Position numbers and translations under genes: made by a program
In this document: piece by piece, positions 40,760 to 51,069 of the stretch
Numbering within the stretch: the first letter of the stretch is position 1
Layout: every line of letters starts with the position of its first letter
The notes under the pieces: generated by a model
Seen by the model: the letters and a program-made list of their open reading frames with translations, nothing else
What the model was told of the DNA's origin: nothing
Database searches by the model: none
Assembly: GCF_000315545.1 (NCBI RefSeq)
Contig: NZ_JH992902.1
Location: forward strand, 1,473,893 to 1,537,892
DNA length: 64,000 nt
Reading direction: 5' to 3'
DNA from: Selenomonas sp. F0473
GTDB lineage: Bacteria; Bacillota; Negativicutes; Selenomonadales; Selenomonadaceae

Positions 40760-41743
40760 TTGTTCAACGATAAATCCATTTTAATTACCGGCGGCACAGG
40801 CTCATTCGGCAAAAAGTTTATTGAAATCCTGCTTGCACGGTACACGCCAAAGAAAGTGATTGTATTTTCCCGTGACGAGCTGAAGCAGTTCGAGATGCAG
40901 CAGGTGTTTAACGACGCGTGTATGCGGTATTTCATCGGCGATGTGCGCGATGAGGCGCGGCTGAAGCAGGCGATGTATAAAGTCGACTATGTTGTACATG
41001 CGGCGGCGCTCAAGCAGGTGCCGGCGGCGGAGTACAATCCGATGGAATGCATCAAGACGAACGTGAACGGCGCGCAGAACGTCATCAACGCGGCGATTGC
41101 GTGCGGCGTGAAAAAGGTCATCGCGCTCTCGACGGATAAGGCGGCGAATCCGATCAATCTGTACGGCGCGACAAAACTCTGCTCGGATAAGCTCTTTACG
41201 GCGGCAAATAATCTGGTCGGGGATCGTGAGACGCGGTTTTCTGTCGTTCGTTACGGCAATGTCGTCGGATCGCGGGGCTCGGTTGTCCCGTTCTTCAAGA
41301 AACTTATTGCAGAGGGCGCTTCGGAACTGCCCGTGACGGATGAACGCATGACGCGCTTTTGGCTGCGCCTTGAGGACGGCGTATCATTTGTCCTAAAGAA
41401 TTTCGAACGCATGCATGGCGGCGAACTCTTTATCCCAAAGATTCCATCGATGCGAATCACAGATCTCTGTGAGGCGATTGCGCCCGGTGTGCCGACGAAG
41501 GTGATCGGCATTCGCCCGGGGGAAAAACTGCACGAGGTGATGTGTCCTGCCGACCTCTATTACGATACGATTGAATTTGACGATCATTTTGTTATTCAGC
41601 CGTCGACACCGATCCTTGGCGTTGACTATACAAAGAATGCACTTGGAGAAGAGGGGCATCTGGTTTCCGACGGCTTCGCCTACGATTCCGGTTCTAACCC
41701 TCACTTTTTGACAGTAGAGGAACTCCGGGAGATGAATCCATGA
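40760..41743 (+). CDS. pseB: UDP-GlcNAc 4,6-dehydratase (inverting), pseudaminic acid step 1
   Basis: A 327-residue SDR making UDP-2-acetamido-2,6-dideoxy-beta-L-arabino-hexos-4-ulose. [28 protein letters not shown] and [22 protein letters not shown] (in parts) are PseB signatures; [19 protein letters not shown] holds catalytic Thr-Asp-Lys and Lys. TTG start with AGAGGGG 7 nt upstream. The stop overlaps the pseC start by 4 nt. GC-rich, unlike genes before it, so this module has its own history. Confidence 0.94.
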
Positions 41744-42897
41744 TTTACTATGGGCGGCAGAGTGTTGATGAAACGGATATTGCGGCGGTCGAAGCCGTTC
41801 TCCATTCGGACTTTCTGACGCAGGGGCCTGCGATCGAACAGTTCGAGCGCTGCGTTGCGGATTACTGCGGCACAAAATATGCGGTCGCGGTCTGCAATGC
41901 GACGGCAGCGCTGCATATTGCATGCCGTGCGGCAGGACTTGGTGCGGGCGATATCCTCTGGACGAGTCCGATCACCTTTGTCGCGTCGGCGAACTGTGCG
42001 CGGTATTGCGGTGCGGATGTCGATTTTGTCGACATTGATGAGCGTACCTATAATATGAGCGCATCGACACTTGAGGAAAAGCTCCGCCGGGCAAAGGCGG
42101 AGAATAAGCTGCCGAAGGTCGTCGTTCCGGTTCATCTCGCGGGACAGTCCTGTGAAATGAAACGCATCCGTGCGCTCGCCGAGGCGTATGGTTTTACTGT
42201 CCTTGAGGATGCCTCACATGCGGTGGGCGCGGATTATCTCCATACGAAGGTCGGCGGCTGCGTCTTTTCGGATATGACGGTGTTCAGCTTCCATCCCGTG
42301 AAGATTGTCACGACGGGCGAAGGCGGCATGATACTGACGAACAATCGGGATCTCTACGAGAAACTTACGCTCTATCGCAGTCACGGCATCACGCGTGATC
42401 CGGAGAAAATGACGCATGCCGCTGACGGCCCGTGGTATTATCAGCAGATCGACCTCGGATATAACTATCGGATGACCGATCTGCAGGCGGCGCTCGGATA
42501 CAGTCAGATGCAGCGGTTGGATGCGTTCGTTGCACGGCGCAGAGAACTTGTCGCGCGTTACGACGAATTGCTCCGGGATCTGCCGCTGACGACGCCGCAT
42601 GTCATGGAGGGAACAGTGCCCTCTTGGCATATCTATGTTGTGCGGCTTGATTTTGCACGGATTGATAAAACCAAAGAGCAAATCTTTAGCGAGATGAAAA
42701 AGCGGGGCGTTGTACTGAATCTGCATTATATCCCCGTCCATTTACAGCCCTATTATGAGCAGCTTGGCTTTGTGAAGGGCGATTTCCCTCACAGCGAATC
42801 TTACTACGAGGAAGCTTTGACGCTGCCGCTCTACTATGATTTGACGGATGCACAGCAGGATGAGATTATTGCGGCACTGCGGGAAGTGTTGATGTGA
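41740..42897 (+). CDS. pseC: UDP-4-amino-4,6-dideoxy-N-acetyl-L-altrosamine transaminase, step 2
   Basis: A 385-residue PLP aminotransferase of the DegT family: [54 protein letters not shown] and [16 protein letters not shown] with the PLP Lys in HPVK. These wordings are those of PseC. Translation is coupled to pseB by an ATGA overlap and to the next gene by GTGA. Confidence 0.94.
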
Positions 42898-43772
42898 ATA
42901 GGGCACAACTTTGCCTCGGAACCGTGCAGCTCGGTATGAACTACGGGATCAAGAATGTACTGGGGCGCCGGCCGACGTATACGGAGAGTTTTGCAGTGCT
43001 TGATGCGGCACTGGAGGCAGGCATCCGTTCCTTTGACACGGCGCGTGTTTATGGTATGGCTGAGGAAGTATTGGGCTGCTATGGGCTGGCGCAGGAAGAG
43101 AATGTGCGGATCATCTCTAAATTACGTCCCGATCTGCCGAATGATGCGGGCGCAGTACTCCATGAGGTCAAGGAATCGCTGTATAGACTCAAAGCGCAAA
43201 AGCTAACATGTTTGATGCTGCACCGGGCCTCAGATATGGACCGCTCCGCCATCATGGAGGCGCTTTGCCGTGCAAAGAAACTAGGGCTGACGGACACGAT
43301 TGGCGTTTCTGTCTATGAGCCGGAAGATGCTGTTAGGACAGTAGAGGACGTACGCTTCGACGCGATACAGATCCCTTATAACGTGCTTGATCGGCGACTC
43401 GACTCGTCCGGCTTTTTTCGTAAAGCAAAAGAACGGCGTATCACCGTATATGCGCGCAGCGCGTTCCTGCAGGGACTGCTGCTTATGGAGCCGGAAAGCG
43501 CGGAGCGTAAAGTTCCGGGAAGCGAAGCATTGATTCGGTTGTTTCGGGAGATTGCAGAGAAATACGGATTTATACCTGCAGAGGCGGCGATGCTCTATAG
43601 TCTTACACATCCGAGCATTGATTATGTCGTGTTCGGCGTCGATACTGCAGAGCAGCTTAAAGAAAATATAAAGATACTGCAAAAAGCAGAGCAATTTGAT
43701 CATTGTTGTGAAGAACTTCGCAGTGCATTTCATGACGTGCCGCGTGAGATCATCACACCAAGTCTTTGGTAA
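42894..43772 (+). CDS. Aldo/keto reductase
   Basis: A 292-residue TIM-barrel oxidoreductase using NADPH. LCLGTVQLGMNYGI, SFDTARVYGMAEEVLG (catalytic Asp and Tyr), HRASDMD in the place of the catalytic His region and YARSAFLQGLL near the cofactor. GTG start overlapping the pseC stop, so made with it. The substrate may be a keto sugar or aldehyde in a pseudaminic-acid variant; it is not part of the textbook pathway. Confidence 0.85.
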   Translation: MNRAQLCLGTVQLGMNYGIKNVLGRRPTYTESFAVLDAALEAGIRSFDTARVYGMAEEVLGCYGLAQEENVRIISKLRPDLPNDAGAVLHEVKESLYRLKAQKLTCLMLHRASDMDRSAIMEALCRAKKLGLTDTIGVSVYEPEDAVRTVEDVRFDAIQIPYNVLDRRLDSSGFFRKAKERRITVYARSAFLQGLLLMEPESAERKVPGSEALIRLFREIAEKYGFIPAEAAMLYSLTHPSIDYVVFGVDTAEQLKENIKILQKAEQFDHCCEELRSAFHDVPREIITPSLW

Positions 43773-50013: not shown

Positions 50014-50025
50014 AGGAGTTTTTTC

Positions 50026-51069
50026 ATGGAGCTTTATGATTTATGTCATACTAACAAGAGCCGCCCTTTTATCATCGCCGAGATGTCGGGCAATCACAAT
50101 CAATCGCTCGAGCGGGCGTTGGAGATTGTGGATGCGGCGGCAGCGGCGGGGGTGGATGCGCTCAAGATTCAGACGTATACCGCGGACACGATGACGCTCG
50201 ACATCGACACAGGTGAGTTCTTCATCGCAGACAAAGACAGCCTGTGGAAGGGCGAATCTCTCTATCACCTCTATGAAAAAGCCCATACGCCATGGGAATG
50301 GCATAAGCCAATCTTTGATCGGTGCAGGGAGCACGGCATTATCGGCTTCAGCACGCCGTTTGACGACAGCGCGGTGGATTTTCTGGAAGAGCTGGGCGTT
50401 CCGTGTTATAAGATCGCATCGTTTGAAAACGTCGATTTGCCGCTCATCAAGAAGGCGGCACGCACGGGCAAGCCGATGATTGTTTCCACCGGAATGACGA
50501 ACCTCGCGGAACTCGAGGAACTTGTGACGACCGCGCGGGAAAATGGCTGCACAGATCTCACTCTGCTGAAATGCACGAGCAGCTATCCTGCGACGCCCGA
50601 GGGGACGAATCTCATGACCATCCCCCATATGCGAGAGCTTTTTGGGTGCAAGGTCGGACTTTCGGATCATACGCTCGGCATCGGTGCGGCGGTGGCAAGC
50701 GTCGCACTGGGCGCCGATGTGATCGAAAAGCATTTTACACTCTCTCGTGCGGAGGGCGGCGTGGATTCGGCGTTTTCCTTAGAGCCGCGGGAGATGGTGC
50801 GGCTTGTGCGGGAATGCGAGACCGCTGCGCTTGCGCTCGGTACGGTCAGCTATGCCATGCAGACGCAGGAAAAAAAATCTCTTCAATTCCGCCGCAGCCT
50901 CTATATCGCGGAGGATATGAAGGCGGGCGACGTGCTCACCGCACAGAATATGCGGCGCATCCGTCCCGGGTTCGGGCTTGCACCGAAATACTATGATGCC
51001 TTGTTAGGGCGGAAGGTGAAACGCGATGTAAAACGCGGAACGCCGCTCGCGTGGGATTTGGTAGAGTAA
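50026..51069 (+). CDS. pseI: Pseudaminic acid synthase, step 5
   Basis: A 347-residue enzyme condensing the diacetamido sugar with phosphoenolpyruvate. The NeuB-type TIM barrel has FIIAEMSGNHNQSLERALEI, KIQTYTADTMTL, STPFDDSAVDFLE, KIASFENVDLPLI, LKCTSSYPATP and GLSDHTLGI; the C-terminal antifreeze-like SAF domain (about residues 285-347) has FRRSLYIAEDMKAGDVLT. KCTSSYPA with these wordings points to PseI rather than NeuB or LegI. Ribosome site AAGGAG 7 nt upstream. Last gene of the glycan locus. Confidence 0.93.
   Translation: MELYDLCHTNKSRPFIIAEMSGNHNQSLERALEIVDAAAAAGVDALKIQTYTADTMTLDIDTGEFFIADKDSLWKGESLYHLYEKAHTPWEWHKPIFDRCREHGIIGFSTPFDDSAVDFLEELGVPCYKIASFENVDLPLIKKAARTGKPMIVSTGMTNLAELEELVTTARENGCTDLTLLKCTSSYPATPEGTNLMTIPHMRELFGCKVGLSDHTLGIGAAVASVALGADVIEKHFTLSRAEGGVDSAFSLEPREMVRLVRECETAALALGTVSYAMQTQEKKSLQFRRSLYIAEDMKAGDVLTAQNMRRIRPGFGLAPKYYDALLGRKVKRDVKRGTPLAWDLVE

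Follow-up and report, generated by a model that had tools for sequence, protein, structure and literature searches.

An aldo/keto reductase, an SpsF-type cytidylyltransferase and a class III aminotransferase as a recurrent unit in pseudaminic acid clusters: the locus of Selenomonas sp. F0473 and a possible C8 amination

The cluster and its cytidylyltransferase

A stretch of 64,000 nucleotides from Selenomonas sp. F0473 (hereafter the window) contains a cluster for the biosynthesis of pseudaminic acid (Pse), in which the ORF listing of the window places eleven open reading frames (ORFs) between positions 40760 and 51069, every one on the + strand (Table 1). PseB, PseC, PseG, PseI, PseH and PseF were scored against the curated equivalog cut-offs of NCBIfam, which revealed that the cut-offs of PseB, PseC, PseG and PseI, enzymes of the canonical pathway to cytidine monophosphate (CMP)-pseudaminate, were all exceeded in the window, and that a PseH-like GNAT protein scoring below its cut-off stands at the place expected for PseH. 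A preliminary description of this DNA had taken pseB, pseC, pseH, pseG and pseI to be complete, which holds by score for four of them and by position and fold only for PseH. The five additional enzymes that it had named were all recovered by Pfam or NCBIfam matches, namely an aldo/keto reductase (AKR), a class III pyridoxal phosphate (PLP)-dependent aminotransferase (AT3), a short-chain dehydrogenase/reductase (SDR), a metallophosphoesterase and an ATP-grasp protein. Overlaps of 4 nucleotides, which it had also mentioned, exist at three junctions (PseB/PseC, PseC/AKR and SDR/phosphoesterase), whereas the remaining junctions show overlaps of 28 and 17 nucleotides at two places and gaps of 3-96 nucleotides at five.

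Table 1. Genes of the cluster and of the locus preceding it (positions in the window; scores in bits with model cut-offs)
Feature	Position	Strand	Evidence and remarks
pseB, UDP-GlcNAc 4,6-dehydratase (5-inverting)	40760..41743	+	TIGR03589 549.1 bits, cut-off 407.75; TTG start
pseC, DegT-family C4 aminotransferase	41740..42897	+	TIGR03588 551.5 bits, cut-off 423.5
AKR, aldo/keto reductase, pseudaminate-linked type	42894..43772	+	PF00248; GTG start
SpsF-type cytidylyltransferase (CTP_transf_3)	43819..44622	+	PF02348 104.1 bits, cut-off 22.6
AT3, class III PLP aminotransferase	44595..45890	+	PF00202
pseG, UDP-sugar hydrolase	45987..47030	+	TIGR03590 301.4 bits, cut-off 153.55; GTG start
SDR oxidoreductase, decoration cassette gene 1	47038..47712	+	PF00106 93.1 bits
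Metallophosphoesterase (calcineurin-like)	47709..48410	+	PF12850 75.2 bits
ATP-grasp ligase-like, PylC-like N-terminal domain	48414..49496	+	PF02655, PF15632, PF21360; PDB 2pn1 E 1.8e-9; GTG start
PseH-like GNAT N-acetyltransferase (weak)	49480..50013	+	TIGR03585 52.2 bits, cut-off 93.1; PF13302 65.3 bits
pseI, pseudaminic acid synthase	50026..51069	+	TIGR03586 507 bits, cut-off 340.25
Polysaccharide locus preceding the pse cluster	15151..40643	+	partial scan of its genes

The genome consists of one contig of 2,065,801 bases and is 99.94% complete. A search of the whole genome with the PseF model (TIGR03584, cut-off 205.7 bits) found nothing over the cut-off and two weak matches (50.5 and 24.5 bits), which are KdsB near 889,5xx (TIGR00466, 249.3 bits versus 155.2) and the SpsF-like gene of the cluster, whose protein reaches 24 bits with the PseF model. 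Therefore a pseF gene elsewhere in the genome, a possibility named beforehand among those that would refute the observation, was rejected, and the earlier statement that PseF is missing while an SpsF-like enzyme stands in the cluster was borne out. The label SpsF, taken from the Bacillus subtilis protein, denotes here membership of CTP_transf_3 only. Residues R14, K18, D99, E160, H161, D193 and D197 were kept in 99-100% of 108 aligned rows and are all present in the window protein, which bears in part on the other refuting condition named beforehand, an inactive or aldose-specific SpsF. Its nearest solved structure was 6oew (annotated as 'Cytidylyltransferase', E 2.1e-62), followed by KdsB.

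Linkage, fusion and spread of the AKR-SpsF-AT3 unit

Among 189 genomes of the window's family, pseI exceeded its cut-off in 30, at 31 places, and for each of these loci (numbered with the prefix L, as are all others below) at most 20 kb of sequence was taken, less where a contig end intervened (L072 has only 3,466 bases). At a family threshold of E<=1e-35 (the locus thresholds were chosen for this analysis), the AKR was found in 17 of the 189 genomes, all of which belong to the 30 with pseI and carry it within ~10 kb of that gene (Fisher p 2e-16, a guide only, as the genomes are related). An assignment of the AKR as a generic reductase was rejected because, at this threshold, it is confined in the family to pseI loci. 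SpsF was present in 16 of the 17 AKR loci versus none of the 14 pseI loci without AKR, and PseF in three of 17 versus eight of 14 (Fisher p 6e-8 and 0.03, respectively, with the same caution about related genomes). AT3 accompanied the AKR in 15 of the 17 loci, and an SDR took its place in the other two (L061 and L066). In addition, SpsF is fused to AT3 in L041 and in a Pseudosulfitobacter plasmid (L033), AKR to SpsF in L073, and all three are joined in a single polypeptide of 985 residues in L065; in L065 and L073, SpsF stands together with PseF.

AKR, SpsF and AT3 thus recur as a single unit, frequently in fused form, which is very likely dedicated to the tailoring and activation of a nonulosonic acid. 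The five additional enzymes of the window, which had been described as interleaved, do not all belong together: the SDR, phosphoesterase and ATP-grasp genes form a separate and rarer cassette (five loci). Similarly, the term 'non-standard' used for the window was too strong, as PseB-PseC-AKR-SpsF-AT3-PseG-(PseH)-PseI is a common arrangement, and the suggested second product made alongside is plausible mainly where PseF and AKR-SpsF coexist (three of the 17 family AKR loci), among which the window is not found.

The set recurs in many phyla; a search for it beside pseI in other genomes had been proposed earlier as a check. A profile scan of genome contigs with the AKR alignment detected at least 529 relatives. 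Of these, the 80 that scored best came from Lachnospiraceae, Selenomonadaceae, Pseudomonadota, Cyanobacteria, Bacteroidota, candidate phyla and other groups. In Bacteroidia, the AKR (E<=1e-28) was found in 25 of 395 sampled genomes, a sample drawn by the search tool that gives no prevalence, and in the order to which one of these genomes belongs it was found in six of six genomes at E<=1e-30. The best 80 of at least 529 were combined with 20 of the 25 Bacteroidia loci (two more were already represented as L213 and L215) and with three plasmid loci, out of 23 plasmid records with AKR of which four were opened, giving 103 AKR-selected loci. Two loci bear two numbers each, L067 being identical to L160 and L041 to L161; the 103-locus count keeps L160 and L161 and not L067 and L041, the tree of 121 AKRs described below leaves L160 and L161 out, and residue counts include both pairs.

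PseB, PseC or a NeuB-type synthase was present in 98 of the 103 loci. The AKR was accompanied by AT3 in 66 loci, by an AKR-linked SDR in 13 and by a second DegT aminotransferase in five, with none of these in the remaining 19. A cytidylyltransferase was located within 3.5 kb of the AKR in 93 loci (77 with SpsF, 15 with a PseF-like enzyme of at least 110 bits, one with both) and in ten there was none; with a stricter PseF-like threshold (at least 200 bits), six of the 103 had a PseF-like enzyme alone. Fusions of SpsF to AT3 occurred in 20 of these loci (among them L169 of Marinobacter persicus) and of AKR to SpsF in four, L254, with all three fused, being counted in both. AT3-like matches were also detected in 144 plasmid records and 23 phage records, and the AKR itself on seven viral contigs, four of which (L103, L104, L106 and L107) have AT3, SpsF and PseB beside it. 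A terminase-like ORF is near in L102, L103 and L107 (terminase and portal genes were judged from ORF sequence and place). In L103 (4150-8668), L106 and L107 the set adjoins structural genes and short NeuB-like ORFs of ~193-239 residues, of which that of L107 matches PseI and the others were identified by eye, so that these three may represent a compact viral nonulosonic acid set.

A proposed route to a C8-aminated pseudaminic acid

Gene content, the absence of PseF, residue conservation, linkage, fusions and the exchange of partners were observed directly, and from here on we infer the chemical steps, their placement at C8, the resulting sugar and where it ends up. The cluster might make a C8-aminated pseudaminic acid, a reading to which we attach about even weight. 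PseB, PseC, PseH, PseG and PseI would produce a Pse-type nonulosonic acid by the usual route, the AKR (42894) would oxidize the C8 secondary alcohol, CH(OH)-CH3, to a methyl ketone, and AT3 (44595) would convert this ketone to an amine. Before or after the C8 steps, the CMP-sugar would be formed by the SpsF-type enzyme (43819), since the cluster has no other CTP transferase, which would yield CMP-8-amino-8-deoxy-Pse, a nonulosonic acid with amino groups at C5, C7 and C8. The SDR, phosphoesterase and ATP-grasp enzymes would then alter an acyl group, perhaps by joining an acid to the additional amine through an amide bond, and the sugar would probably enter the polysaccharide whose genes lie immediately upstream. 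The preliminary description had already suggested a modified nonulosonic acid, with an extra amino group as one possibility, and had pointed to the SpsF-like enzyme; SpsF was confirmed as the sole cytidylyltransferase of the cluster, and the amine is what the comparisons below would imply.

D48, Y53, K76 and H110 of the window AKR, which we take to be the catalytic tetrad of this superfamily, were kept in 100% of 123 aligned AKR rows. The proposed site of action comes from EpaA (GenPept SBS22546.1), a fusion of CTP_transf_3 and Aldo_ket_red domains, and EpaB, an SDR, which together convert Pse to 8-epi-Pse, as established by nuclear magnetic resonance of the product (PMC12053666). These proteins of Acinetobacter baumannii prophages resemble the window, in a comparison of domain architecture only, in the pairing of the two domains and in the Pse context, but AT3 stands where EpaB would be, AKR and SpsF are adjacent rather than fused, and PseF is lacking in the window. 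Loci with an AKR and SDR that follow the EpaA/EpaB plan were found in Marinovum (L101, an SDR beside an SpsF-AKR fusion), Maritalea (L100) and Priestia (L099), and also as L046, L061, L184 (Evansella), L198, L203 and L204 (Pontibacter). A quick tree of 121 AKRs calls for at least eight changes of partner (AT3 or SDR, assigned in 97 rows), and the AKR of the SDR locus L061 lies inside a clade of 11 rows (96/98) of which the other ten are AT3-linked. Because the AKR tree is mixed with respect to partner and the product of EpaA/EpaB is 8-epi-Pse, C8 is probably where the AKR acts in both types of loci. The profiles of the AKR-linked SDRs did not report the window SDR (47038), their best matches between 34001 and 54000 (25.9 and 19.9 bits) being an upstream epimerase-like gene and PseB. 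In viral contigs, no confirmed relative of the Marinovum fusion was detected, and an EpaA-like search of phages gave no match.

In AT3, D233 and K261 were invariant in 46 aligned sequences, and K261 is predicted from its motif to be the PLP lysine. A housekeeping role as glutamate-1-semialdehyde (GSA) aminomutase was rejected, as AT3 falls below the cut-off of HemL (TIGR00713, 264.4 bits versus 527.3) and a genuine HemL (607.4 bits) is encoded separately at 236,368. After GSA aminomutases, its relatives in the PDB were D-phenylglycine aminotransferase, FumI (6hbs, 1.2e-38), a C-6' aminotransferase (7lld, E 1.5e-35, presumably GenB1) and others. An AlphaFold model built from the 46 sequences (predicted local distance difference test 89.8) matches class III structures, and VIA-align placed FumI first (Z 46.1, root-mean-square deviation 1.8, 401 aligned residues) with GSA aminomutase close behind (Z 45.1). 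FumI acts on a CH3-CH(NH2) end, and C8-C9 of Pse is CH(OH)-CH3 after the PseI step. Two deep AT3 subtypes, ~36% identical, are common to one SpsF clade. A comparable sequence of reactions is found in gentamicin biosynthesis, where GenQ oxidizes G418 at C-6' to a ketone (X2 gives an aldehyde) and the PLP enzyme GenB1 aminates the product (PMC4039129), so that both steps are on record for the hydroxyethyl carbon of a sugar. Like the proposal, it oxidizes a sugar hydroxyl and then uses a PLP aminotransferase, whose structure 7lld AT3 matches; unlike the AKR, GenQ is flavin-linked, and gentamicin is an antibiotic and not a surface sugar.

KdnA is the aminotransferase of the pathway to Kdo8N, the 8-amino derivative of 3-deoxy-D-manno-octulosonic acid (Kdo). 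The oxidase of this Shewanella pathway is KdnB (PMC5125639), and a cytidylyltransferase for an amino-Kdo has been named (PMC9966250), so that the logic proposed for the window (oxidation of a distal hydroxyl of a 2-keto-3-deoxy acid, amination, and a cytidylyltransferase for the amino sugar) has a counterpart there. Differences from the window are that KdnB belongs to the iron-containing alcohol dehydrogenases, that the terminal amine is carried by Kdo, and that no Pse enzymes take part. As to the product, the organism described as Flexibacter maritimus is now Tenacibaculum maritimum. Its O-antigen is reported to contain an 8-amino-3,5,7,8,9-pentadeoxy-nonulosonic acid of manno and, tentatively, L configuration, which belongs to the product class predicted for the window, a likeness of sugar structure alone in which the review leaves the C8 configuration undetermined (PMC3210612). 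A similar gene set is that of the Legionella pneumophila Sg6/Sg12 O-antigen locus, where the gene tables list CapD, DegT, an aldo/keto reductase, an acylneuraminate cytidylyltransferase, a GSA-aminomutase-like class III aminotransferase, PseG, GNAT and NeuB (PMC3694923). Unlike the window, and as far as likeness by annotation goes, this locus adds HisH, HisF and a lipopolysaccharide protein, and in the section consulted the set appears without a proposed role. The literature searched, which mostly leaves out subscription papers so that absence is unproven, yielded no role assigned to AKR, SpsF and class III aminotransferase together. The core of PseB, PseC, PseG and PseI and the SpsF-type enzyme are common to the window and to B. 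subtilis sps (PMC7439481) or Campylobacter jejuni pse (NCBIfam models), and AKR and AT3 are features of the window that the consulted material describes for neither.

A number of observations weigh against C8 amination, and some of them favor other explanations. The placement at C8 is made by analogy with EpaA, itself compared by domain architecture only, and would be weakened if EpaB, and not the AKR part of EpaA, were the oxidase of that pair. At 29 viral loci with SDR relatives, no AKR was found beside them. L058 has AKR and AT3 with neither SpsF nor PseF, and the fetched stretches of L069 and L075 have pse genes and no match to AKR, SpsF or PseF. As a separate observation, L058 (1211-6192) also encodes a thiamine pyrophosphate (TPP) enzyme and a radical-SAM-like protein, the latter read by eye from the sequence, and in the Pse loci L069 and L075 there are likewise genes for a TPP-dependent enzyme and for a protein of radical-SAM/SPASM-like type. 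The 19 AKR loci without any of the three partners at the thresholds used also count here; several of them hold SDRs of less than 200 bits, and five (L144, L145, L148, L152 and L154) have SpsF and a DegT enzyme more than 3.5 kb from the AKR. Moreover, AT3 relatives (~40% identical) exist outside Pse clusters, for example in Haloprofundus (L138). Of the haloarchaeal plasmids, one has an AT3 relative beside a DegT enzyme with no annotated Pse genes, and that of Halorussus (L139, 5067-8317) has consecutive genes for a Gfo/Idh/MocA oxidoreductase, SpsF and AT3, with no annotation of NeuB in the vicinity. The SpsF and AT3 of Methylomagnum are accompanied by an SDR, a NeuB-type synthase and transketolase halves. 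These haloarchaeal and Methylomagnum sets fit a broader oxidoreductase/aminotransferase/cytidylyltransferase theme and not C8 of Pse in particular.

It is possible, though unlikely, that SpsF merely replaces PseF as the CMP-Pse synthetase and that AKR and AT3 have nothing to do with the ring, acting instead on, for example, an acyl or amino-acid substituent, for which an ATP-grasp gene is also present in the window. SpsF does stand with Pse genes and no AKR or AT3 match in Peribacillus (L035), Azospirillum (L036), L043, L044 and L045, and because such lone enzymes exist, SpsF elsewhere is likely to be a plain CMP-Pse synthetase. These rows, however, group apart in the SpsF tree (94/87), whereas 16 of 19 AT3-linked rows form one clade (100/98) with L033, L034 and L083 branching beside it; several loci have SpsF joined to AKR, AT3 or both in one protein, and within the family SpsF always occurs with AKR. 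In addition, since seven of the eight AKR-AT3 loci without SpsF hold a PseF-like enzyme, a CMP transferase accompanies nearly every AKR-AT3 pair, and most simply it would act on the tailored sugar.

Another rather improbable alternative is that AT3 works at an earlier stage, where it would be a second 4-keto-sugar aminotransferase using the PseB product or would aminate another ring position, which would lead to a different amino-nonulosonic acid. Phage contigs with PseB-AKR-SpsF-AT3 fit this idea and count against C8 amination, since their fetched stretches gave no PseC, PseG or PseF match, as do nine AKR-SpsF loci without PseC nearby, eight of which also have no PseG. Four of the nine carry AT3 (L174, L188, L212 and L216) and five a second DegT enzyme (L142, L146, L180, L186 and L209); the latter five also carry a divergent NeuB and possibly represent a further nonulosonic acid pathway. 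L083 likewise has PseB-SpsF-AT3-NeuB, and L082 a DegT enzyme where L083 has AT3, which suggests that the two aminotransferases are interchangeable where PseC is absent. On the other hand, PseC is kept in the window and in 56 of the 66 AT3 loci, so that AT3 is mostly an addition to the pathway and not a replacement; the AKR is common to the SDR loci resembling EpaA/EpaB, which act on Pse; and an earlier-acting AT3 gives the AKR no role. It is still less probable, indeed very improbable, that the module makes an 8-epimer or redox isomer with AT3 as a PLP isomerase, like GSA aminomutase or GenB2, and with no net gain of an amine. GSA aminomutases are the closest relatives of AT3 by PDB sequence (best 5e-57) and by Foldseek of the model, FumI leading by VIA-align alone and by a narrow margin, all of which also tells against amination, and GenB2 is indeed an epimerase (PMC4039129). 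Nevertheless, AT3 scores below the HemL cut-off, and a PLP epimerase of this kind requires an amine already on the carbon, so that there would be an amino sugar at that position anyway.

C8 amination could also be extended to a broader and more doubtful proposal, which we put forward tentatively, that AKR-SpsF-AT3 is a mobile, phylum-crossing and phage-borne 8-amino-8-deoxy cassette, in which the AKR would make the C8 ketone, an exchangeable aminotransferase or SDR would set its fate, a dedicated SpsF would activate the sugar and, in the window, the ATP-grasp cassette would decorate the amine by an amide. If so, the genes for the Tenacibaculum sugar could be predicted, and triamino analogues of sialic acid would be common rather than a single curiosity. 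If C8 amination itself is right, an extra amine at C8 would be readable from sequence in many phyla, so that a sugar seldom reported would become a class open to prediction, and the lack of PseF in many pse clusters would be partly explained. Sialic-acid-like sugars decide how phages and immune systems see surface glycans, and a small enzyme set for CMP-8-amino-Pse, a single polypeptide in some organisms, would be useful to glyco-enzymology. Even with the position of the amine wrong, AKR, SpsF and AT3 are strongly linked and often fused, with no assigned function found in the literature searched.

The decoration cassette and the surroundings of the cluster

The SDR-phosphoesterase-ATP-grasp genes directly follow PseG in the window, and in L040 and L057 they follow a methyltransferase-like ORF in the same order; the fetched stretches of these two loci, unlike the window, gave no PseH match. 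Weaker forms were found in L175 and, without the SDR, in L191, which makes five loci in all at the thresholds used, all of them with AKR-SpsF-AT3. A strict tie of the cassette to AT3 was not upheld, as a borderline ATP-grasp match of 59 bits occurs in L074, which has no AKR. The PylC-like domain suggests that the ATP-grasp enzyme may join an acid to an amine. In L060 (10516-12613), Pfam matches identified a formyltransferase gene and a PIG-L deacetylase gene in the interval from pseG to pseI, and look-alike ORFs were seen by eye in the same slot of L064 and L068, which suggests an N-formyl pseudaminic acid. No dependence of these genes on AT3 is proposed either, since L063, which has PseF and lacks AKR, holds a protein that ORF clustering related to the L060 formyltransferase. 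Because the cassette, the formyltransferase/PIG-L genes and their look-alikes all occupy it, the place between PseG and PseI is a variable slot, and the SDR-phosphoesterase-ATP-grasp set looks like a variable decoration cassette.

According to a partial gene scan, the polysaccharide locus that precedes the pse cluster encodes a sugar-1-phosphate transferase, glycosyltransferases, GDP-mannose dehydratase, an ABC transporter and UDP-glucose dehydrogenase. The flagellin genes (three matches) are located at ~0.88 and 1.09 Mb and the pse cluster at ~1.515-1.525 Mb, and flagellin as the obvious target was rejected on account of this distance and of the neighboring polysaccharide locus. Because the flagellins are distant and the polysaccharide locus adjoins the cluster, a surface polysaccharide appears the likelier destination of the CMP-sugar. 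A search of the genome for MptE-like (Maf-type) proteins found none, with control matches that were all archaeal, so that a bacterial Maf may escape it. Just upstream of the cluster (37528-39627), genes for a DegT aminotransferase and for a protein resembling dTDP-glucose dehydratase perhaps serve another amino sugar of the same polysaccharide. Directly downstream, there are two transposase genes, one IS200-like (Y1) at 51375-51869 on the + strand and one of the Mutator family at 51898-53172 on the - strand, which are possibly a mark of mobility.

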